The notes under the pieces are model-generated. The model was given only the letters and a program-made list of their open reading frames with translations, made no database searches and was not told the DNA's origin. From assembly GCA_026417135.1 (NCBI GenBank), contig JAOADV010000018.1:1-38164 (forward strand): a stretch of 38,164 bases of DNA. The letters are read 5' to 3'. This document shows positions 25,376-37,521 of the stretch, piece by piece. A program made the translations under genes and the position numbers. The number at the start of each line of letters is the position of its first letter. Within the stretch, counting starts at the first letter, position 1. The DNA comes from Ignavibacteria bacterium. Lineage in GTDB: Bacteria > Bacteroidota > Ignavibacteria > Kapaibacteriales > UBA2268.

Positions 25376-25879
25376 TTATTCAAACTCCAATTCTATTCTG
25401 ATTAATTCACCACATTTACACTTAACTTCGATTGCCTTTACATCCCCATTTTCATCTCGTATAATTCGATGCAAAAGATTAGAATCATTATTTTCGCGTG
25501 AAATCGACCCCTCAAGTATTTGTTGTTGACTTTCTTGATTCTTCGATAAATTCGAATTTGCTGGACTTGAACTTGTAGCGATGGGCTTACCAATTATATA
25601 ATCGACAAATTTCGAGGACAAGGTTGTGGTTCTTTCCTTTTTAAATTCATCATCGAAAAAATCGACAAACTTTGTTCGTAATTCCCTTTGTTCATCCCGA
25701 TAAAGGAAATATTGGTCCAGAGCAGTATTTATTCTCTTTAATTCTTCCAAATTAATCTCGGAAGTGTTTAATTCCAAAGACTTGGGTAGTAAAGAAGTTG
25801 AAAAAACTTCATAATAGGTAAAAGCTGGTTCTATTTTCAAATTTTCGGCAATTTCTTTAGAAATTACATTTCTTTTCAT
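25376..25879 (-). CDS. Unknown protein at the end of the chemotaxis array
   Basis: A 167-residue protein with no recognised domain. Residues 1-90 are mainly charged and helical, including a Glu/Arg/Asp-rich stretch (YFLYRDEQRELRTKFVDFF). Residues 100-130 are low-complexity (Ser, Asn, Gln). The last 30 residues form a short conserved-looking beta module with Cys154-x-Cys156-Gly (CKCGELIRIELEFE). These are its only cysteines, so any metal site would need a partner or a dimer. ATGA overlap couples it to cheB. Position implies a role in the chemosensory pathway or its output. There is no signal peptide or membrane helix. Confidence 0.7.
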   Translation of the reverse strand: MKRNVISKEIAENLKIEPAFTYYEVFSTSLLPKSLELNTSEINLEELKRINTALDQYFLYRDEQRELRTKFVDFFDDEFKKERTTTLSSKFVDYIIGKPIATSSSPANSNLSKNQESQQQILEGSISRENNDSNLLHRIIRDENGDVKAIEVKCKCGELIRIELEFE

Positions 25880-26982
25880 TTGACTTTTCCTCCAAGTTCA
25901 CAAATCACTCGAGGAATATTATCTAAATGGACAACTTCATTAGCTATTTTATGGTTTATGACGGAATTTGGCATACTCGCAATCACGCAGCTATCTGGAC
26001 TTTGGGCAATCACGTACCCACCCTTACTACTAACTTGTTTTAAACCTTCGGTTCCATCGCTACCCATTCCAGTCATAATTAAACCAACCACCTTCTTTCC
26101 GAAAACATTCGCAAGCGAGTCAAACATAACATCCGCAGAAGGTTTGAAAGTTGTTTGTGGCTCTTGCGAGATTACAATTTTCCCATACCTACTTACTGTC
26201 ATTTGCAATCCACCTGGAGCAATATATGCAAACCCATTTTGCAATGTTTCGTTATTTTCGGCTTCTTTAACCGTAAGAGGAGAAATTGAATTCAATCGAT
26301 TAGCAAGGGATTGAGTAAAAACTGGGGGCATATGTTGAACTATGAGTATTGGGAATGGCAAGTCCGGACATAAATTCTCGAACACTTTTTGCAAAGAAGC
26401 TGGTCCCCCAGTTGAAATGGCAATTCCAACAACATCGATTTCACTTGGGCTGGGTCGATGTCTAATAGTTACGAAATCTCGGTCAATTGTAGGTTCTTTT
26501 GGTTCAAGTTCGACTTGTACCTTATCCTTCGAAGATTGGTGAAATTTTTGCAATAGTCTTCGACGATGTAATCTATTTCGTAGCTCGGAATTTCTTGCGA
26601 TATTACGAACCTTATTTAACAGCTCGGCTTTTATCGTAGCCATTTCAGTATAATTGCCCTTTTTAGCGATGAAATCAACCGCACCAAGTTCTAAAGCTTC
26701 GAGTGTTGCATTTGCACCATCAGTTGTCAACGAACTTACCATAATTACTGGAATGGGGTTACTCTTCATTATTTCGCCAAGAGCTTCCAATCCATTCATA
26801 ACGGGCATTTCAATATCCATTGTAATTACGTCTGGAGAGAGATTTGCAGCCATATCTACTGCTTCTTTCCCATTCCTAGCTAAACCGACAATTTCAATAT
26901 CTGGTTCTGTAAAGATTTTAGCTAAGGCTTGTCGCATAAATACAGAATCATCGACTATCAAAAGTTTAATTTTGTTGGTCAT
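25876..26982 (-). CDS. cheB: Chemotaxis response regulator protein-glutamate methylesterase CheB
   Basis: A 368-residue two-domain enzyme that demethylates and deamidates chemoreceptors during adaptation. The receiver domain is residues 1-125, with phosphoacceptor Asp56 (MDIEMPVMNG). A basic linker of about 50 residues follows. The esterase domain has the full triad: Ser190 in AISTGGP, His217 in IVQHMPP and Asp309 in GMGSDG. Its substrate receptors are not in this window, so they must be encoded elsewhere. It follows cheA by 9 nt and overlaps the terminal unknown gene by 4 nt. Confidence 0.96.
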   Translation of the reverse strand: MTNKIKLLIVDDSVFMRQALAKIFTEPDIEIVGLARNGKEAVDMAANLSPDVITMDIEMPVMNGLEALGEIMKSNPIPVIMVSSLTTDGANATLEALELGAVDFIAKKGNYTEMATIKAELLNKVRNIARNSELRNRLHRRRLLQKFHQSSKDKVQVELEPKEPTIDRDFVTIRHRPSPSEIDVVGIAISTGGPASLQKVFENLCPDLPFPILIVQHMPPVFTQSLANRLNSISPLTVKEAENNETLQNGFAYIAPGGLQMTVSRYGKIVISQEPQTTFKPSADVMFDSLANVFGKKVVGLIMTGMGSDGTEGLKQVSSKGGYVIAQSPDSCVIASMPNSVINHKIANEVVHLDNIPRVICELGGKVK

Positions 26983-26991
26983 AAAGCAAAC

Positions 26992-28941
26992 TTAATTTCT
27001 TGTGTAAACTAATGCTCCAACATCCAATATAACAACAACCGAGCCATCGCCGAGAATTGTTACTCCAGCAATCCCTTCGATATGACCCAGAAAATTGCCA
27101 AGTGGTTTTATAACTATTTCCTGTTGTCCTAACAACTCGTCGACAACTAAACCTACACGAAATTCGCCAACCCCAACAACAACTATATATTTATTCTCCA
27201 AAGTTTCCTCTTCACCATCAACATTTAGAACATTATTCAACCTAAACAAAGGCAAGATATCGGAACGAATTCGTATAACCTCTCGCTTGTTTATTGTTGT
27301 TACCATCGATACATCGCAGCTAACAACTTCGAGCACCGAAGACAATGGAATAGCATATATTTCAGACTTAACGCGAACAAGTAAGCCCTGGATTATGGCA
27401 AGTGTTAATGGAAGTTTTATAGTAAAAGTTGTTCCCATTCCTATCTCGGAATCAATATCTATCATACCTTTGAGCTTCAATATATTTGTCCGAACAACAT
27501 CCATTCCGACGCCTCTTCCAGAAACGCTGGACACACTCTGTGCGGTACTAAAACCGGGATAGAAAATAAGTTGAAATACCTGTCGATTTGAAAGTTGCAA
27601 AGCTTCTTCTTGTGAAATTAAACCCCGTTGTAAAGCTTTTTCCTTAATTTTTTCTGGGTTCAAACCACGCCCATCGTCGGAAACACGAATCACGATATTA
27701 TTCCCTTCTTGCAAAGCACCAAGATAGACTGTCCCAACTTCAGGCTTACCTAATTTAATCCTCTCTTCGGGGGGTTCGATACCGTGGTCGCAAGCATTGC
27801 GCAACATATGAACAAGTGGGTCGCTTAACTCTTCGATTATCCCTTTATCAATCTCAGTTTCTTCGCCATCCATTATTAACTGTATCTTTTTATTGAATTG
27901 CTTAGCTAAATCGCGAACAATACGTGGTGCTTTTTGGAATAATTTCCCGATTGGCACCATCCTCATTCTCATAACAGAAGCTTGTATTTCAGAGGTAATA
28001 AAATCGAGCTGCGAGGCAGTCTCTTCAAGTTCCTTCAATTTTGTTTTTGTAATATCGCCAGCCAAAAATTTTTCGACAACTTGCTCCAATCTGTTGCGAC
28101 CCAAGACCAATTCACCAGAAAGGTCCATTAAGTGTTCAACTCTGGAAACATCTACACGAATAGATTCAGTAGCCAAAGCTGATGGTGCCGCCGTTTTAGA
28201 CGAAACTTTAGTCTTTGCCTCTCCTTCGATATTTTTTTCTTCTTGCAATTCACTTCCTTTGCTATGCTCTGGTTCATCGGTCTTACTAATTACTTCTTCA
28301 GCGGAAGAATCTTCCTTCGACGAGAAAATTTTTTCGACATCGAAATCTAATTTTACTTTCGACATTAATTGCCTATTCTGTTCCGCGAAAGCAGATTCAA
28401 TAAAAGAGTACTCTTCGGGAGTAAAATCGCCTTTTTTTGAAATTAATTCATTAGCCATTTGCAAAACTGCTTCGACACTCGAATGCTTTTCTTCGGTCCT
28501 TATTTCTCCTTGCTCTTGTTGAACTTCCTTTTCTGTATCTAACCTACCACCAACCTTTAAAACTTCGATTTTGTTAAGTATATCTTTTAAGTCAATCTGA
28601 GTAAGGTCTTCCCCGCCCCTAACCTTACCCAACATTAAAGTTAGAACATCTTGAACCTCCAAAAGAACATCGACAATATCTTGATTAAGTTCCAACTCGA
28701 ACTTTCTCAATCGATTAAGAATTTCTTCCGCAGAATGTGTAAGAGTTGCAATTTTTTCGAAACCCATAAACGAAGAAGTACCTTTCAAAGTATGAAAAGT
28801 GCGAAAAATCCGATTTAAAAGCTCTTCGTCTTTTGGGTTTTCTTCAATTAGCATTAAATCTTGCGAAAGAAGGTCCAACAATTCTGTGGACTCTACAATA
28901 TACGACTCGAAAATTTCTTGCATTTCCTGGTCAATTTCCAT
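26992..28941 (-). CDS. cheA: Chemotaxis histidine kinase CheA
   Basis: A 649-residue kinase that phosphorylates CheY and CheB in response to receptors. In order: an HPt domain with His50 (FHTLKGTSSFMGF); an acidic, low-complexity linker (about 130-258); and a dimerisation helix pair (from about 260, RVDVSRVEHLMDLSGELVLG). Then comes the ATPase with its N box (LRNACDHGIEPPEER), G1 (SDDGRGL) and G2 (GRGVGMDVV), and last a CheW-like domain (about 510-645). I see no recognisable P2 domain, the CheY/CheB docking module, in the linker. The partner CheW is also not encoded in this window. It sits 6 nt after the cheZ-like gene and 9 nt before cheB. Confidence 0.95.
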   Translation of the reverse strand: MEIDQEMQEIFESYIVESTELLDLLSQDLMLIEENPKDEELLNRIFRTFHTLKGTSSFMGFEKIATLTHSAEEILNRLRKFELELNQDIVDVLLEVQDVLTLMLGKVRGGEDLTQIDLKDILNKIEVLKVGGRLDTEKEVQQEQGEIRTEEKHSSVEAVLQMANELISKKGDFTPEEYSFIESAFAEQNRQLMSKVKLDFDVEKIFSSKEDSSAEEVISKTDEPEHSKGSELQEEKNIEGEAKTKVSSKTAAPSALATESIRVDVSRVEHLMDLSGELVLGRNRLEQVVEKFLAGDITKTKLKELEETASQLDFITSEIQASVMRMRMVPIGKLFQKAPRIVRDLAKQFNKKIQLIMDGEETEIDKGIIEELSDPLVHMLRNACDHGIEPPEERIKLGKPEVGTVYLGALQEGNNIVIRVSDDGRGLNPEKIKEKALQRGLISQEEALQLSNRQVFQLIFYPGFSTAQSVSSVSGRGVGMDVVRTNILKLKGMIDIDSEIGMGTTFTIKLPLTLAIIQGLLVRVKSEIYAIPLSSVLEVVSCDVSMVTTINKREVIRIRSDILPLFRLNNVLNVDGEEETLENKYIVVVGVGEFRVGLVVDELLGQQEIVIKPLGNFLGHIEGIAGVTILGDGSVVVILDVGALVYTRN

Positions 28942-28947
28942 ACGAAA

Positions 28948-29865
28948 TCAATTATTATTTTTTTCTTCCTTAAACAATTTATCTATATCTTCTTGAGAAA
29001 TAGCTTCGTTAGAATTCTCATCCAAAGCCCCAGCAATTTCATTAGGAACTAAATCCTCATTCAACGGTTGTGAAATTACGGGGGTTTCGACGGAACTCTC
29101 GTTAAACAGTTTGTCTATTTCTTCTTGTCTTGTAGTACTTTTCGATAAAGAATCGACAGCGTCGGGGTCGAAAGCAATCTTCTTGTGTAAGAGATTTATA
29201 TTGCTTTCATTTATATCCTCTTTTTGTTCAAATTTTTCTTCGGTAAAGAAAGGGAATTTAGCCAGTAAAACATTTAAGCGTGTCTGAACTATATTTAAAA
29301 GGTGATTTACAGCAGCAATTTGTTGTGCGGTAATGTCTTGTATCTGTAATGCAAGCATTATCGAAGAGGCGTCGTTTCGAATATTATCCAAAATTTCACG
29401 AGTCGAGTTCAACAAGGACGACAAATCTTTCAACTCGGCAAAAAAATTTTCATTGGACAATTTTTGAGATTCCCCAGAAATTTCGGTAAATAAAAATTTC
29501 GTTTCAGTAGTTTCGGAGGAAAACTTATTAGCCAAACGAGTCGAAATTTCTGAATGAACCTTTTCGATTTGCGATAAATTTGAATTTGCAATATCTATCT
29601 TGTAAAAAACTCCATCTATAATATCTAAAATTTCATTTGTTGCAAGCTCGGTTGCTTCTGTAACTTTTGCCAGCTGCTTCGAAAGATTAGGCATTTTGGT
29701 TAAATTCTCTTTTATAGAGGTATTAATCTCTTCGAGTAAAGGTTGTGTTTCGCTAACGAAAGCAAAAAGTTCTTCCAAAAGTGGAATCACTCTTTGACCC
29801 AATACAAACAAAGCCCGAAGTTCTTCGACCTTACTTATAAAACTTTCAAGACTTTTCTCTTTCAT
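28948..29865 (-). CDS. cheZ: CheZ-like CheY-P phosphatase with two FliM-type CheY-binding peptides
   Basis: A 305-residue, mostly helical protein. Residues 1-205 form long amphipathic helices, ending in the key motif QIQDITAQQI (Asp177, Gln181). This matches the DLTGQ core of CheZ, where Asp143 and Gln147 of the enteric enzyme do the chemistry; the four-residue spacing is kept. The tail (about 206-305) is acidic and disordered in appearance. It holds two copies of a short motif, RQEEIDKLF (246-254) and SQEDIDKLF (290-298). These resemble the CheY-P-binding peptide at the FliM N-terminus (LSQxEIDxLL) and play the part of the single C-terminal CheY-binding peptide of enteric CheZ. Gene order between cheY and cheA fits. 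The assignment rests on motifs, not a search. Confidence 0.75.
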   Translation of the reverse strand: MKEKSLESFISKVEELRALFVLGQRVIPLLEELFAFVSETQPLLEEINTSIKENLTKMPNLSKQLAKVTEATELATNEILDIIDGVFYKIDIANSNLSQIEKVHSEISTRLANKFSSETTETKFLFTEISGESQKLSNENFFAELKDLSSLLNSTREILDNIRNDASSIMLALQIQDITAQQIAAVNHLLNIVQTRLNVLLAKFPFFTEEKFEQKEDINESNINLLHKKIAFDPDAVDSLSKSTTRQEEIDKLFNESSVETPVISQPLNEDLVPNEIAGALDENSNEAISQEDIDKLFKEEKNNN

Positions 29866-29870
29866 TTTTA

Positions 29871-30242
29871 CTAAACATTTGTCTTTAATATTGATAAAAT
29901 TTTTTCTTTCAAGACCTGCGGGGTAAATGGTTTCACAATGTAATTGTTTACCTTAGCTTGTAATGCTTGTATAATATCTTCTTTAAGTCCGCGAGTTGTT
30001 ACCATCAATATGGGCAAATCTTTCCACTGGTCAGAATTACGAATAGCCTTGGTCAAATCCAAACCAGTCATATTTGGCATATTCCAATCGGTTATAATAA
30101 AATCAATCTTATTACTTTGAAGTTTAGCAAGGGCATCTTGCCCATCTTCTGCTTCGACAATATCATCGATGCCAAATGATTTAAGAGCATTTACTACGAT
30201 TCTTCGCATTGTAGGCGAATCGTCGACGACAAGAAATTTCAT
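29871..30242 (-). CDS. cheY: CheY response regulator (chemotaxis type)
   Basis: A 123-residue single receiver domain. Phosphoacceptor Asp52 lies in TDWNMPNMTG, nearly identical to the enteric CheY signature. The conserved acidic pair (VVDDS), the switch threonine (MVTTRG) and the lysine (YIVKPF) are all present. No output domain, so signalling is by protein contact. It is 5 nt upstream of the cheZ-like gene, which makes it the most probable substrate of that phosphatase. Confidence 0.93.
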   Translation of the reverse strand: MKFLVVDDSPTMRRIVVNALKSFGIDDIVEAEDGQDALAKLQSNKIDFIITDWNMPNMTGLDLTKAIRNSDQWKDLPILMVTTRGLKEDIIQALQAKVNNYIVKPFTPQVLKEKILSILKTNV

Positions 30243-30266: not shown

Positions 30267-30644
30267 TTACTCATTTTTCAAAGGAATGTACTTTGAAACT
30301 TCATAAAGAATTCGTTTCGAATTAAAAGGTTTAATTAAATACGAATTTGCTCCGCTTTCGAAACCACGCTTGATATCTTCGTCTTTTCCAAGCGAGGAAA
30401 GTATAATTATAGGCAATTCCTTGTACTCTGGATTTTCCCTAATTGTCTTAATTAGTAAAAATCCATCCAAATTGGGCATATTCAAGTCGGTTATGAGTAA
30501 ATCGATTTTATGCAAAGGCAACTTCTCCAATGCATCCATTCCATCAATTGCTTCGATAACTTCGAATCCGGTAATTTTTAATGCCATAGCAATAAATTTT
30601 CTAATGGTCTCGGAATCTTCTACGATTAATATTGTCTTTTTCAT
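30267..30644 (-). CDS. Second CheY-like single-domain response regulator
   Basis: A 125-residue receiver with phosphoacceptor Asp53 (TDLNMPNLDG), acidic pair VEDS, switch serine (LSSLGKDED) and lysine (LIKPF). Compared with the neighbouring CheY it lacks the tryptophan after the phospho-Asp and the TR of the switch region. It may therefore be a phosphate sink or have another target rather than being the motor regulator. It is 15 nt from cheR and 24 nt from the second cheY. It contains no DNA-binding domain. Confidence 0.9.
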   Translation of the reverse strand: MKKTILIVEDSETIRKFIAMALKITGFEVIEAIDGMDALEKLPLHKIDLLITDLNMPNLDGFLLIKTIRENPEYKELPIIILSSLGKDEDIKRGFESGANSYLIKPFNSKRILYEVSKYIPLKNE

Positions 30645-30659
30645 TCTATAAAACTTTAA

Positions 30660-31514
30660 TTATTCTTTCTTATATGCAATTGCCCTTGGTAAATGCACAA
30701 GTTTAAACGCTTTCGAAACCCCGTGCAAAGACTCAGAATATCCAATAAACAAATAACCTCCGGGATTAAGTACTTCGTAAAGCAAAGAAACCACTTTTTG
30801 TTTGGCAACAATATCAAAATAAATCAGAACGTTCGCACAAAAAATCACATCGCAACTACCTACCATTCGAACTTGCGAAGGCTCGAAAAGATTAATATTT
30901 GTAAAACGGACAATACTTTTTACTTCATCTTTCAAATAATAAAGTCCATCTTTTACTACAAAATATTTTTTAAGATAATTTTCGGGCATATTTCGTACGG
31001 AGTAATCTTTGTAAACTCCATTGCGAGCAGCCTCCAAAACTTGGTTACTAATATCACTACCAAGTATTTGAAATTGAACCTTAGGATACAAAGGTTTAAC
31101 TTTTTCGAGGATTATCATAGCAATTGTATAAGGTTCTTCGCCAGTAGAAGAAGCGGCACTCCAAATCTTTACAATAGGAGAAGAAAGCGAATCTTTGTTC
31201 CTTATTATCTCTGGGAAAACTATTTTCTCAAGAGCCTCGAATTGTTGTTCAGCGCGGAAGAAATAAGTCTCGTTAATAGTAATAACATCAAACAAAAGCT
31301 TTAATTCATCTTTATTCAAAGGATTTTTAATGTATTCCACATAATCGTGGAAAGTTCTAAGTTTCAAAGTTACCAGCCGCTTTTGTATTCTACTTTCGAG
31401 CAAATATTTTTTGCTTTCACTATAAAAGATACCGCTTGCTTTATAAATTATATCACGAAGCTCAATAAAAGCCTCATCCGAAAAGCATTCTTTTTGTTCT
31501 ACACCTTGTGCCAT
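30660..31514 (-). CDS. cheR: Chemotaxis protein methyltransferase CheR
   Basis: A 284-residue SAM-dependent enzyme that methylates glutamates of chemoreceptors. The N-terminal helical domain covers about residues 12-85, with the receptor-facing region (RIQKRLVTLKLRTFHDYVEYI). Then comes ITINETYFFRAEQQFEAL, the classical CheR linker motif. The SAM-binding block is KIWSAASSTGEEPYTIAM, and CDVIFCANVLIYFD is the typical motif of the same fold. No C-terminal pentapeptide-binding beta-subdomain or TPR extension is seen. ATG 31514 was chosen; an in-frame TTG 18 nt upstream would add six residues. It ends 15 nt before the cheY-like gene. Confidence 0.95.
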   Translation of the reverse strand: MAQGVEQKECFSDEAFIELRDIIYKASGIFYSESKKYLLESRIQKRLVTLKLRTFHDYVEYIKNPLNKDELKLLFDVITINETYFFRAEQQFEALEKIVFPEIIRNKDSLSSPIVKIWSAASSTGEEPYTIAMIILEKVKPLYPKVQFQILGSDISNQVLEAARNGVYKDYSVRNMPENYLKKYFVVKDGLYYLKDEVKSIVRFTNINLFEPSQVRMVGSCDVIFCANVLIYFDIVAKQKVVSLLYEVLNPGGYLFIGYSESLHGVSKAFKLVHLPRAIAYKKE

Positions 31515-31556
31515 TTTACAGTGGAATCCCAAAACAAACTAACAAAAAAAAATTTA

Positions 31557-32837
31557 TTATAACAATCCATACCTTAAACCTACCTCTTTTAATTTGCTTT
31601 TTCCTTCGAAATTCAACTCGGAATAAGATTTCCTAAAAGCATCGGTAAACAAATTAGAATCGTACCTACTGAACCTATCGCAATAATCGGTTAAAACCAT
31701 TTCAGAAAAATTGTCGACCAAGCTTAAAAAGCTCTTCATAAAATTCAAACGATTTTCGCGGGGGAATTTTTCCCAACCTTTGAACAAGACCTCGAAAATG
31801 AAATTAAAAACATCAGATGCATCCTTTTGCAATGCAATTTTTTCTACAAAACAAGAAATCAAGTTATAGTCTTCGCTGTGCATAAGATTAGTAATTATGG
31901 TTTCTGTCGTAGAATCTTCGAAACGATTCAACTCGAACACCAAAAATTCGATATCGGCTGGTTGGTAAGTTTTCCCTAATGCCATCAAAGCAGATTGTCG
32001 GATTTCGAGTTCCTCTTCTTTTAAAGCCGCTCTTGCTATTTCTCTTAAATGTTCGGGCAATCTCTTTCCCGGACAATACCTTTTTCCAATATTACATATA
32101 ACCTTTAAAAAATAAGGTTGAATTTGTTTTGGCACATTTGGCAACTTTTCCAACAAAAAATCGACGAAATCGCTATCGACGGGGAAATTGCTTAATGCAT
32201 CTATTGCGGTGAATTGAATAAATTGGTCTGTTTCGGTATTTAAAAGACTTAAAACAAAATCCTTTGCAGATTCGCTACCAATTTTACCTAAGGCATTGAG
32301 AACAAATGGAATGTATTCTTCGTCGGCTTTAAATTTTACGATTAAATCATTGACAACTTCAATCTGACGCATATTACCCAAAGCTATAATCGCCGAAACC
32401 ACAACATTTTTATCCTCATCATTTAGCAAATTTTGGACCAAAACCCAATCTTTTTGACTTCCTATGTTACCCCAAATATCCAAAGCAAACTGCCTTATTT
32501 CACCATTTGGATGACTTAAATAAGGCTTTAGATAATCGTAGCAAACATCTCCATACTTAGTAAGAATCTCTGCAACAATATTGCGTAAAACGATATTTTG
32601 ACTGGCAATTAAATGTACAATCTCTTGCGAAGCAGTTTGTTTAAATTCACCGGGTAAAGTCATTAAACAATCTATTGCTAAATCGCGAATACCTTTGTCG
32701 GGATTAGTCAAAAACTTTGCCACAAGTTTTACTATATCTTCGTCGTAAGTCCTTTGGTCTAATAGATAATACAATGCGTCCTTGACTGTCGAAGTCTCTG
32801 GACTAACTAAAAAACCTTTGATTTCAGAAAATGTCAT
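31557..32837 (-). CDS. HEAT-repeat protein in the chemotaxis array
   Basis: A 426-residue, all-helical soluble protein. Tandem repeats of about 30-35 residues can be traced along the first 300 residues, with phrases such as EIRQFALDIWGNIG, VVSAIIALGNM, VLNALGKIGSESAKD and IRQSALMALGKTYQPAD, the HEAT/PBS-lyase pattern. The final 110 residues are less regular (FPRENRLNFMKSFLSLVDNF). HEAT proteins scaffold other proteins, and there is no catalytic motif. Located between the sigma-54 activator (10 nt) and cheR (42 nt), it may organise the kinase or receptors. There is no signal peptide. Function is otherwise unknown. Confidence 0.82.
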   Translation of the reverse strand: MTFSEIKGFLVSPETSTVKDALYYLLDQRTYDEDIVKLVAKFLTNPDKGIRDLAIDCLMTLPGEFKQTASQEIVHLIASQNIVLRNIVAEILTKYGDVCYDYLKPYLSHPNGEIRQFALDIWGNIGSQKDWVLVQNLLNDEDKNVVVSAIIALGNMRQIEVVNDLIVKFKADEEYIPFVLNALGKIGSESAKDFVLSLLNTETDQFIQFTAIDALSNFPVDSDFVDFLLEKLPNVPKQIQPYFLKVICNIGKRYCPGKRLPEHLREIARAALKEEELEIRQSALMALGKTYQPADIEFLVFELNRFEDSTTETIITNLMHSEDYNLISCFVEKIALQKDASDVFNFIFEVLFKGWEKFPRENRLNFMKSFLSLVDNFSEMVLTDYCDRFSRYDSNLFTDAFRKSYSELNFEGKSKLKEVGLRYGLL

Positions 32838-35371: not shown

Positions 35372-37486
35372 TTATTTTTTGGGTTGCTCAATTTCTTCTT
35401 CGAGCTGTGGTACATTCTTCTTTTTCTCCAAAGAATCGGTCTTTGGTTTAAACTCATCAAGAGGATTTTTGGGTAAATTGATGTCTGGTTGAAGATTTTC
35501 TGGCTTAAAAATTTCACGAACATCTTTGATTATTTTACTTGGGTCTTTGAAATAATCTAAAGGATTAAAACCATCCTTGTCCACTTCATCCTTTTGAGTT
35601 GGCTCTGAAAGGGACGGTAGTGGTTCGATTCCTTTAATTTGCCCGACGGGATGTCTGGGTATCACTTGCCTTTCCTTCAAGGAATCGGGGATTGGTTCAC
35701 CTTTTCGGACGATGTCGAAAAAGGTAACACTTATTCTAACATCATTTGCATAAACACTTTCGGGATATTCGTCGACTAATATCTTGTAATAAAAATATGC
35801 ACTATCGTAGTGCTTAATGTCCCTTTCAAATGTGTAACCAATTAAAAAGAGCGAGCGAGGAGCAAGCGAAGATTTAGGATACCTTATATACACCTCCCGA
35901 AGTTGGTTTAAGCCAAATTTAAATTCTTTGTTCCTAATTAATCTCAATCCCGAAGTGAAAAGCTCAGCTGTTGTATCTATCAAATAATTTTTTGTAAAAC
36001 CAAGTTCAGCAAGAACTTCTTTCCCAAATATAGTATTTGGATATTTCTCTACTAAGATTTCTTTCAAACTATCAGATAAAAATAAATTTCTATCTTGAAT
36101 AATTCTTGCAAAAGAATAAATATATCTTGCGGTATTAGTATCGCTCGGAGGCGAAACTTCGTATGCCAATCGATAATAACGAATGGTTGAATCTATAAAA
36201 CCAAGGCGTTCGAAAATTGCTCCAATCTCGAAAAGAGTCGTCGCAAGAAGCGTTCTCGAGCTATCGGGAATTTCTGCTTTAAAATATTCAGCCAAAAGTG
36301 GTTCGGCTAATCTATACTTCTGTTCCCAATTATTAAGTAAATTGAACATCTTATCGGCACTAGCTAAAACAGGAGTTCGGACATTTCTCGCACGAGCAAA
36401 ATATTTGCGCGCCTCGTTATAATTTCCAGAGTTATATTCGTTTATTGCTTTTTCGTAGAATACCGGAATAAAAGCTGGAGAGACTTTATAAGCGGAATCC
36501 GCATAAGTTTCGAGTTTACGAAATTCCTTCGCGTCATTCTTCAATATAGCAGAAAGCATAAAACCAGAATGGGTAAAATCGTTCCATTCCTGAAACTTTG
36601 CATCTTTTTTCAACTGTGTCAAAATTTTCTCGCCCTCGCCAAAATTTCCAAGCCGTATATTGGATAATGCTTCGTAGAAGTAAGATTCGTAAAGAGTTAA
36701 ATAGTCGGGATTGTAATTCCTTACTTTTCTAAATGCCAAAAGAGCATCTTCCCAATTGCCTAAACGATAATAAATCGAAGCCAAATCGAATTGCCAGCGT
36801 GCTCGAAGTTTGTTGTCGTCGGTTTGTGCAATAGCTTGTCTATATGGACGAAGTGCCCCATCGATGTTATTTTCGAACAAGGAAAGTTCGGCTTGCAATC
36901 GAAATGCTTCGGAAAGAATATCGTATCGTTCTTTTTGCCAAGCGATATCAACTGTTCTGGAAAGTAAAACTTTACCAGAATGGAACTTCCTTTGAACCAA
37001 TAAATTCTTCGAAAGCAATAAATGAGCATCGGGCGAAAGGTCTCCGGCTGGGAATTTATCGACTAACTCACTGCATTTAATTTGCGAAGGTAAATACTCA
37101 CTTTTGTAGAAGTATGATTTAGCCATCAAATAAAGAGAACCCTCGACAAAGTCGCTTTTCGCATATCGCGAAAGTATTTTCGAACCTTTGATAACAATGG
37201 AATCTAACTTTGTCTTTACAGGTTGTAATTTAACGGGCGAAATAATGAACTCTTGCATAAAAGGTGGTGGTCCAGAAGGAATATTTTCAACAGGTTGAAG
37301 GTCTTTCAGAGGAACTACAAGACGAGGTTTTGCTTTGAGCTTAATATCTTGATATTCAAACTCGTCTTCGGCTTCTTTCATCAACCGTTGACAATTGTAA
37401 TAAGTATTAAAATAAGTTGTAAAGTTCGTATACTGCCCACATCCTGCAACAAACAGGAGAAAGATAAGTGCAAAGAAAATTTTCAT
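35372..37486 (-). CDS. TPR lipoprotein resembling PorW/SprE of type IX secretion and gliding
   Basis: A 704-residue lipoprotein with signal sequence MKIFFALIFLLFVAGC and lipobox VAGC. After FTTYFNTYYNCQRLMKEAE, a phrase common at the start of Bacteroidota TPR lipoproteins of the SprE/PorW kind, the body (about 90-590) is a chain of tetratricopeptide helices (RWQFDLASIYYRLGNWEDAL, VFYEKAINEYNSGNYNEARK, SLFLIGYTFERDIKHYDSA). The last 110 residues are proline/glutamate rich and probably disordered. PorW/SprE proteins are needed for T9SS function and, in gliders, for motility. The assignment is by architecture and length (known examples about 600-870) and not certain. It is the first gene of the eleven-gene array. 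Confidence 0.65.
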   Translation of the reverse strand: MKIFFALIFLLFVAGCGQYTNFTTYFNTYYNCQRLMKEAEDEFEYQDIKLKAKPRLVVPLKDLQPVENIPSGPPPFMQEFIISPVKLQPVKTKLDSIVIKGSKILSRYAKSDFVEGSLYLMAKSYFYKSEYLPSQIKCSELVDKFPAGDLSPDAHLLLSKNLLVQRKFHSGKVLLSRTVDIAWQKERYDILSEAFRLQAELSLFENNIDGALRPYRQAIAQTDDNKLRARWQFDLASIYYRLGNWEDALLAFRKVRNYNPDYLTLYESYFYEALSNIRLGNFGEGEKILTQLKKDAKFQEWNDFTHSGFMLSAILKNDAKEFRKLETYADSAYKVSPAFIPVFYEKAINEYNSGNYNEARKYFARARNVRTPVLASADKMFNLLNNWEQKYRLAEPLLAEYFKAEIPDSSRTLLATTLFEIGAIFERLGFIDSTIRYYRLAYEVSPPSDTNTARYIYSFARIIQDRNLFLSDSLKEILVEKYPNTIFGKEVLAELGFTKNYLIDTTAELFTSGLRLIRNKEFKFGLNQLREVYIRYPKSSLAPRSLFLIGYTFERDIKHYDSAYFYYKILVDEYPESVYANDVRISVTFFDIVRKGEPIPDSLKERQVIPRHPVGQIKGIEPLPSLSEPTQKDEVDKDGFNPLDYFKDPSKIIKDVREIFKPENLQPDINLPKNPLDEFKPKTDSLEKKKNVPQLEEEIEQPKK

Positions 37487-37521
37487 TACATCAAACAAAA
37501 TACAACATTAGATAACGCCTA

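Follow-up and report, generated by a model that had tools for sequence, protein, structure and literature searches.

A CheZ protein from an Ignavibacteria bacterium with two putative FliM-type CheY-docking peptides in its tail, and the labile number of such peptides in its relatives

The window, by which we mean the whole 38,164-nucleotide stretch of Ignavibacteria DNA that was analysed, contains a block of chemotaxis genes that all run in one direction, on the minus strand, and encode a HEAT-repeat protein, CheR, a receiver of 125 amino acids, CheY, CheZ, CheA and CheB. The HEAT-repeat gene (31557..32837) heads the conserved block and is followed by cheR (30660..31532, whose start is listed as TTG and is uncertain), by the second single receiver (30267..30644) and by cheY (29871..30242, 123 aa). 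The cheZ frame starts with ATG and runs from 29865 down to 28948, encoding 305 amino acids; beyond it lie cheA (26992..28941, 649 aa, with Hpt, dimer, ATPase and CheW domains) and cheB (25876..26982, 368 aa). The HEAT-repeat protein, CheR, CheA and CheB were all recognised by Pfam. A preliminary description of this DNA had placed two CheY-type receivers just upstream of cheZ, and both are there. The same neighbours recur in relatives: among the best 80 of 235 loci, some of which stop at contig borders, we found matches to CheY in 77, to CheA in 75, to CheR in 72, to the second receiver in 69 and to the HEAT-repeat gene in 62. The gene after cheB (25376-25879) encodes a 167-aa protein with no Pfam match and was refound in 6 of these 80 loci. 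Elsewhere in the window, the TPR-type protein encoded at 35372-37498 weakly matches PorW/SprE of type IX secretion (82.6/250 bits).

The Pfam matches listed for the window's CheA at an E-value of 0.01 include no CheY-binding domain, and Pfam likewise found none in 20 of 20 CheA relatives chosen from the 75 CheA-matched loci. As a control, E. coli CheA matches the model for this domain, PF09078, with 61.4 bits. P2 domains, to which this model belongs, evolve fast.

The protein encoded by cheZ is a CheZ phosphatase, with a predicted activity on CheY-P through Asp177 and Gln181. It matches Pfam PF04344 over residues 47-253 with 34.4 bits, above the curated cut-off of 30.7, and is the only CheZ match in its 2.24 Mb genome. 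D177 and Q181 (D-I-T-A-Q, 29323..29337, minus strand) sit within QIQDITAQQI, where alignment with the QDLTGQ of E. coli CheZ pairs them with D143 and Q147, and the D-x3-Q pair is invariant in all of the best 30 aligned relatives. The preliminary description had named the protein CheZ-like and pointed to the spacing of these two residues, and both the identity and the catalytic spacing are borne out by the Pfam match, the invariant pair and the che operon. According to PMC7750401, proteobacterial CheZ has an AXXF(Y)Q motif beside D-x3-Q; the equivalent in the window's CheZ is A-L-Q-I-Q, so that the aromatic residue is replaced.

It had also been supposed that automatic annotation would probably miss this combination of features. 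Since the Pfam match exceeds its cut-off, the gene is not hidden, and to that extent the supposition fails. The window's CheZ does not, however, reach the NCBI E. coli-type equivalog NF008368 (24.6 bits against a cut-off of 257), and two scanned relatives fall below the Pfam cut-off of 30.7 with 24.8 and 27.7 bits. The NF008368 score thus indicates that the window protein is a CheZ, but not one of the E. coli type. The closest named record, RCNO01000068, is a metagenome-assembled genome (MAG) of the Bacteroidetes/Chlorobi group with a CheZ that is 55-57% identical, and the names of the relatives' records point to Candidatus Kapabacteria and their neighbours. No relatives were found in the viral contigs that were scanned.

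In an AlphaFold2 model (mean pLDDT 71, pTM 0.41), residues 1-203 (29257..29865, minus strand) form a predicted helical core with helices at 2-117, 122-135 and 139-203. Block means of pLDDT in this core are 78-92, except for 52-65 at residues 111-140. The two long helices, 2-117 and 139-203, could form a hairpin core of the kind that the preliminary description had expected of a CheZ, with a pTM of only 0.41. A fold comparison placed the E. coli CheZ chain 1kmi_Z at rank 29 (E 0.11, prob 0.97, TM (target) 0.46), amid unrelated coiled coils, and in a second comparison 1kmi_Z was not among the 50 matches listed, where unrelated coiled coils were again found. Because unrelated long helices swamp such searches, their outcome speaks neither for nor against a CheZ fold. 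When solved structures were searched by sequence, the window protein as sole query gave just two poor matches, both to XaxA (E 0.7 and 0.78); with an alignment as query, 1kmi_Z appeared with an E-value of 0.86, ranking after designed coiled coils and other entries.

The C-terminal tail of the window's CheZ carries two peptides that are of FliM type and are putative docks for CheY-P, as had been noticed at the outset. Docking motif 1, RQEEIDKLF (residues 246-254; 29104..29130, minus strand), lies in a predicted helix at 244-257 with a pLDDT of just 58-59. Docking motif 2, the terminal peptide SQEDIDKLF (residues 290-298; 28972..28998, minus strand), lies in a predicted helix at 291-303 with a pLDDT of 77 at 291-300. 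They are joined by an acidic and probably disordered linker (residues 259-287; 29005..29091, minus strand): pLDDT is below 50 at residues 258-287, and residues 255-289 include eight D/E and no K/R. The N-terminus of FliM from the same genome, SQSEIDKLL, resembles both motifs. In the contact table for E. coli FliM and CheY in a Vibrio study (PMC3774744), FliM Q8 is paired with CheY V108, D12 with K119, and I11 and L14 with I95, A99 and Y106. Both tail motifs carry Q, I, D and hydrophobic residues at the positions of the FliM contacts Q8, I11, D12, L14 and L15, with Phe in place of L15 in both.

Chance does not readily produce such a pair. A search of the whole 2.24 Mb genome with degenerate codons for Q-x-[DE]-[IVM]-D-x-[LF]-[LF] gave four matches, namely the two tail motifs, the N-terminus of FliM and a further site; a reversed control pattern matched once. 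The fourth site lies inside a 560-residue frame that resembles a metabolic enzyme, presumably a B12-dependent mutase, and looks like a chance match. Shuffling the 96-aa tail of the window's CheZ 200,000 times never yielded two copies of the strict motif, defined as Q-x-[DENSQ]-[IV]-D-x-[LMIF]-[FLM]. Furthermore, both motifs are present in all five genomes of the genus (that of the window and four others), in which pairwise identity is 69% in motif 1 and 83% in motif 2, against 14% in the linker between them.

Motif 1 would appear to be the ancestral docking helix, standing at the docking position of E. coli CheZ, and motif 2 an addition. The Pfam CheZ profile ends at the E. coli docking peptide, with E. 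coli residue 214 at profile position 203, and residue 253 of the window's protein is at profile position 197, so that, provided the alignment stays ungapped towards its end, motif 1 would correspond to E. coli residues 202-209. A profile alignment with hhalign also pairs motif 1 with the E. coli docking helix, but it scores poorly (E 0.0087, probability 4.6). Counted from the catalytic Asp to the Gln of the motif, the distance is 59 residues in E. coli CheZ; in the window's protein it is 70 to motif 1 and 114 to motif 2, and this distance, together with the profile position, points to motif 2 as the added copy. Across the lineage it is the terminal motif, and not motif 1, that is better conserved; outside the genus the motif-1 region is often degenerate (for example, RQDMADTLV).

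The CheY encoded next to cheZ is 54% identical to E. coli CheY and keeps K92, I95, Y106, V108 and K119 (E. coli numbering), with K91 and K122 not kept. This pattern extends to the 77 CheY relatives found among the best 80 of 235 loci: K119 is present in 77 of 77, Y106 in 76 and K92 in 75, and all 77 have Ile or Val at position 95; K91, A99 and K122 are mostly not kept across the loci. The face to which FliM and CheZ dock is therefore largely kept in the adjacent CheY, which is the likely partner of this CheZ judging from these residues.

To see how common such tails are, we assembled 139 CheZ proteins (30 plus 109 frames from loci). Since many of these frames are the same gene under two locus identifiers, all counts were made on 106 distinct tails. 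Two frames with long runs of unread letters (L076 and L115) were left out, as were two classical CheZ (L062 and L063) that the family profile did not match and that were read apart. The sample consists of the best 80 of 235 loci and the best 30 matches in other searches and leans towards relatives of the window's protein, so the share of multi-motif tails in it does not carry over to CheZ as a whole. Among these 106 tails of best matches, 12 have no strict motif, 54 have one, 21 have two, 8 have three, 8 have four, 2 have five and 1 has seven. The 169 strict motifs seen, against 0.04 expected from shuffled tails, exclude chance as their source. Two or more strict motifs occur in 40 of the 106; under a looser definition, which drops the Gln requirement and counts weak forms too, two or more occur in 48, against 1.48 single matches expected overall. 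The looser motif gives one apparent chance match in a classical tail (L176). A strict motif lies within the last 25 amino acids in 89 of the 106 distinct tails, and the terminal motif ends in Phe in all of the best 30 aligned relatives. Of the 12 tails without a strict motif, 4 retain looser forms and 8 have none.

The preliminary description had held that known CheZ proteins have a single docking peptide. This is right for the nine classical CheZ, seven from Pseudomonadota and two from the window's own order, which all have exactly one strict motif, but it does not extend to the present lineage, in which 40 of the 106 best-matching tails have at least two. Its expectation that homologues would conserve both the Asp/Gln pair and the two tail motifs was likewise borne out in part: the pair is invariant in the best 30 relatives and both motifs persist throughout the genus, but the number of motifs is labile outside it. 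On a tree of 106 rows built from the core only, excluding the tail, by a quick method and with several long branches, looser copy number (with five as the maximum state) changes at least 35 times, and the state none, one or several at least 18 times. Thus, expansion and loss of motifs are frequent. As copy number turns over so fast and 54 of the 106 best-matching tails have one strict motif, the extra copies are not essential.

The longest tails show different kinds of expansion. Seven copies are found in the CheZ of a Candidatus Kapaibacterium (L125, JANQRB010000018). In its predicted structure, the stretches with pLDDT under 50 are interrupted at all seven motifs; these rises are mostly small, and the last motif alone is confident. 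Tandem Repeats Finder, at its default threshold, reported no array in this locus, and seven strict motifs in the absence of a tandem array suggest that the motifs there are kept better than their surroundings. Two Rhodothermus MAGs (L141 and L152) have four motifs each, and two further genomes of the same phylum with Rhodothermus-like tails (L068 and L071) have five each; in L068 the motifs form a tandem array of 48-bp units with 80% matches. In three other expanded tails (L018, L020 and L026), the repeat unit takes in linker as well as motif, which points to recent duplication. A CheZ from Gemmatimonadales (L158, 5001-5909) has three docking motifs; the window's other che genes were unmatched in the stretch around it.

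Some relatives carry these motifs in genomes where no flagellar switch was found. In three genomes of the window's order that are recorded as 99% complete (G041, G049 and G056), we found no match to FliM, FliMN_C or FlhA and, over cut-off, none to T2SSE/PilT-type ATPase families. Matches to the chemoreceptor signalling domain number 51 in G041, 49 in G049 and 25 in G056; the window's own genome carries flagellar genes and a single receptor match. The CheZ loci concerned are L022 and L127 in G041, L120 in G049 and L031 in G056, and under the looser definition the CheZ tails of the three genomes carry three or four motifs. In the two genomes that were read, G041 and G049, the che block is present, and cheY stands next to cheZ in L127 and L120. 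The picture in the three genomes is of a large chemosensory system for which we found no motor. A search for gliding motor proteins in the genomes without flagellar genes gave no match, and its controls were likewise unmatched. Since the motifs are kept without a FliM match, their role does not depend on competing with FliM, and the docking motif seems to be useful even without a flagellar switch, as far as these genomes indicate.

The window's CheZ shares with CheZ of E. coli and other Pseudomonadota (PF04344, PDB 1kmi) the D-x3-Q pair, a long helical core, a tether and a che operon, and E. coli CheZ has its docking helix at the position that matches motif 1. In contrast, the chain of the Pseudomonadota proteins (7 of 7) ends in a single peptide, VDDLL-x2-LGF or LGI, and the two classical CheZ of the window's order also have one, VDALLESLGF, whereas the chain of the window's CheZ goes on past motif 1 to a linker and then to a FliM-like terminal peptide. 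In their letters the tail motifs are nearly the same as the N-terminal CheY-P-binding peptide of FliM (EIDALL motif). However, the FliM peptide is N-terminal and feeds the switch, whereas the CheZ copies are in the tail and, where present, number from one to seven. Among the open-licence papers listed, we found nothing that appears to describe a CheZ with several docking peptides. The multi-peptide CheZ is a variant of CheZ and is part of a wider pattern in this lineage.

PMC1447658 describes E. coli CheZ as a dimer in which a C-terminal helix holds the main affinity for CheY-P and a flexible tether connects that helix to the bundle that bears the active sites, and it proposes active CheZ oligomers that are bridged by CheY-P through tail and active site. 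The model as described there has one docking helix per chain; two to seven would raise the valence. With this as a guide, we think it likely that the two peptides of the window's tail, and the multiple peptides of its relatives, give multivalent capture of a single CheY species; for the window's protein this is the bivalent capture that the preliminary description had put forward. D177 and Q181, on the long helical core, would remove the phosphate from CheY-P, and the flexible tail would offer two FliM-type docking helices, each a probable ligand of CheY-P at its alpha4-beta5-alpha5 face. The docked partner would be the CheY-P from the gene just upstream of cheZ. Motif 1 would be the ancestral dock, since its distance from the active site is close to that in E. 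coli (70 versus 59 residues), and each added helix would supply one more site for CheY-P. If this CheZ is a dimer, as in E. coli, as many as four CheY-P could sit on its tails and two at its active sites, and a dimer of the seven-copy protein L125 would have fourteen tail sites. Such extra sites should raise avidity and the local amount of CheY-P, and one CheY-P may bridge two CheZ dimers, in the manner that PMC1447658 proposes for a single helix. Among the relatives, the tail has repeatedly gained and lost copies, reaching as many as seven. The sequence features, their conservation, the operon and the match of the CheY face are direct observations; the binding, stoichiometry and kinetic effect in this account are what we infer from them.

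A bolder extension, which we regard as unlikely, is that the tails are tunable multivalent scaffolds in which rising CheY-P cross-links CheZ into more active clusters, the number of repeats sets the threshold, and the device works in relatives without a flagellar switch too. Each CheY-P, held by a single helix out of the two to seven in a tail, would then offer its phosphate to the active site of the same dimer or of another.

Because copy number is so labile, the strongest alternative to multivalent capture is that one motif alone, either the terminal or the ancestral one, docks CheY, and that the others are redundant products of repeat expansion and decay. The minimum of 35 changes on the core tree, the 48-bp tandem units of L068, the repeated linkers of L018, L020 and L026, and the poor conservation of motif 1 in many relatives, against a terminal motif in 89 of the 106 best-matching tails, are what one would expect of such redundancy. 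However, it sits badly with the conservation of both motifs in the window's genus amid a linker that is 14% identical, and with the seven strict motifs of L125, for which no tandem array was reported at the default threshold. We hold it to be rather doubtful. It had also been suggested that the two motifs let one protein serve two receivers, CheY and the adjacent second single-domain receiver. Both are encoded just upstream and travel with cheZ (77 and 69 of the best 80 of 235 loci), and among the 69 relatives of the second receiver from these loci, Y106 is kept in 68 and Ile or Val at position 95 in 64. Yet the docking face of this receiver is not kept. In the window it has Glu at 119 and Leu in place of W58; Glu119 recurs in 69 of 69 relatives, as does replacement of W58 by Leu or Ile, and at least 62 of the 69 have E, D, A, S, N or T at position 92. 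Position 119 is where, in the contact table of PMC3774744, FliM D12 pairs with Lys119 of E. coli CheY, a Lys that the CheY relatives have in 77 of 77. The charge is thus reversed at the very residue that pairs with the motif's Asp, which makes the second receiver an unlikely partner. Moreover, at three loci (L104, L114 and L155) CheZ carries several motifs and the second receiver is unmatched in the surrounding stretch, but may be encoded elsewhere in their genomes. The suggestion that one CheZ serves both receivers has accordingly become highly improbable.

Two further readings concern the purpose or the partner of the tail rather than its valence. The tail could act as a buffer or sink for CheY-P, or place CheY near the kinase, in which case CheZ may replace the P2 domain of CheA in recruitment. 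That Pfam finds no CheY-binding domain in the window's CheA or in the 20 chosen relatives would fit, but with a domain that evolves as fast as P2 a missing Pfam match is weak evidence; P2 is missing beside ten single-motif CheZ too, and nothing here indicates binding between CheZ and CheA. This leaves a buffering or recruiting role improbable in our judgement. Alternatively, the motifs might bind a protein other than a receiver, such as a flagellar or polar localisation partner, and the three or four motifs (looser count) that are kept in G041, G049 and G056 without a match to FliM, FliMN_C or FlhA could be read in this way. Against such a partner, L127 and L120 in two of these genomes have CheY next to cheZ, the docking Lys of CheY is present in 77 of 77 loci, and no other protein with a recurrent motif appeared among the codon-pattern matches that were read. 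We give this possibility very little weight.

The varying number of docking helices matters beyond this locus. In nature, CheZ tails range from zero to seven docking helices while their cores are similar, and they offer a copy-number test of the idea of CheY-P-driven oligomers, as put forward in PMC1447658 for E. coli. They also show how a short linear motif multiplies within a phosphatase. Finally, they carry a warning, as CheZ keeps FliM-type CheY-docking peptides even in genomes in which we found no gene for a flagellar switch.

Several minor observations arose from the same searches. A link between the missing P2 domain of CheA and a large number of motifs was considered and dropped, since the domain is absent beside ten single-motif CheZ as well. 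Locus L205 (373-837, genome G012) contains short tandem repeats of coding length. Two loci, L157 (5001-6241) and L165 (5001-6221), each have two adjoining cheZ-like genes with D-x3-Q in both and no docking motif. The two CheZ of the window's order that were read apart, G053:C125 (L063) and G370:C42 (L062), are of the classical, E. coli-like kind, with 183 and 195 bits, respectively, and were perhaps acquired from Pseudomonadota.
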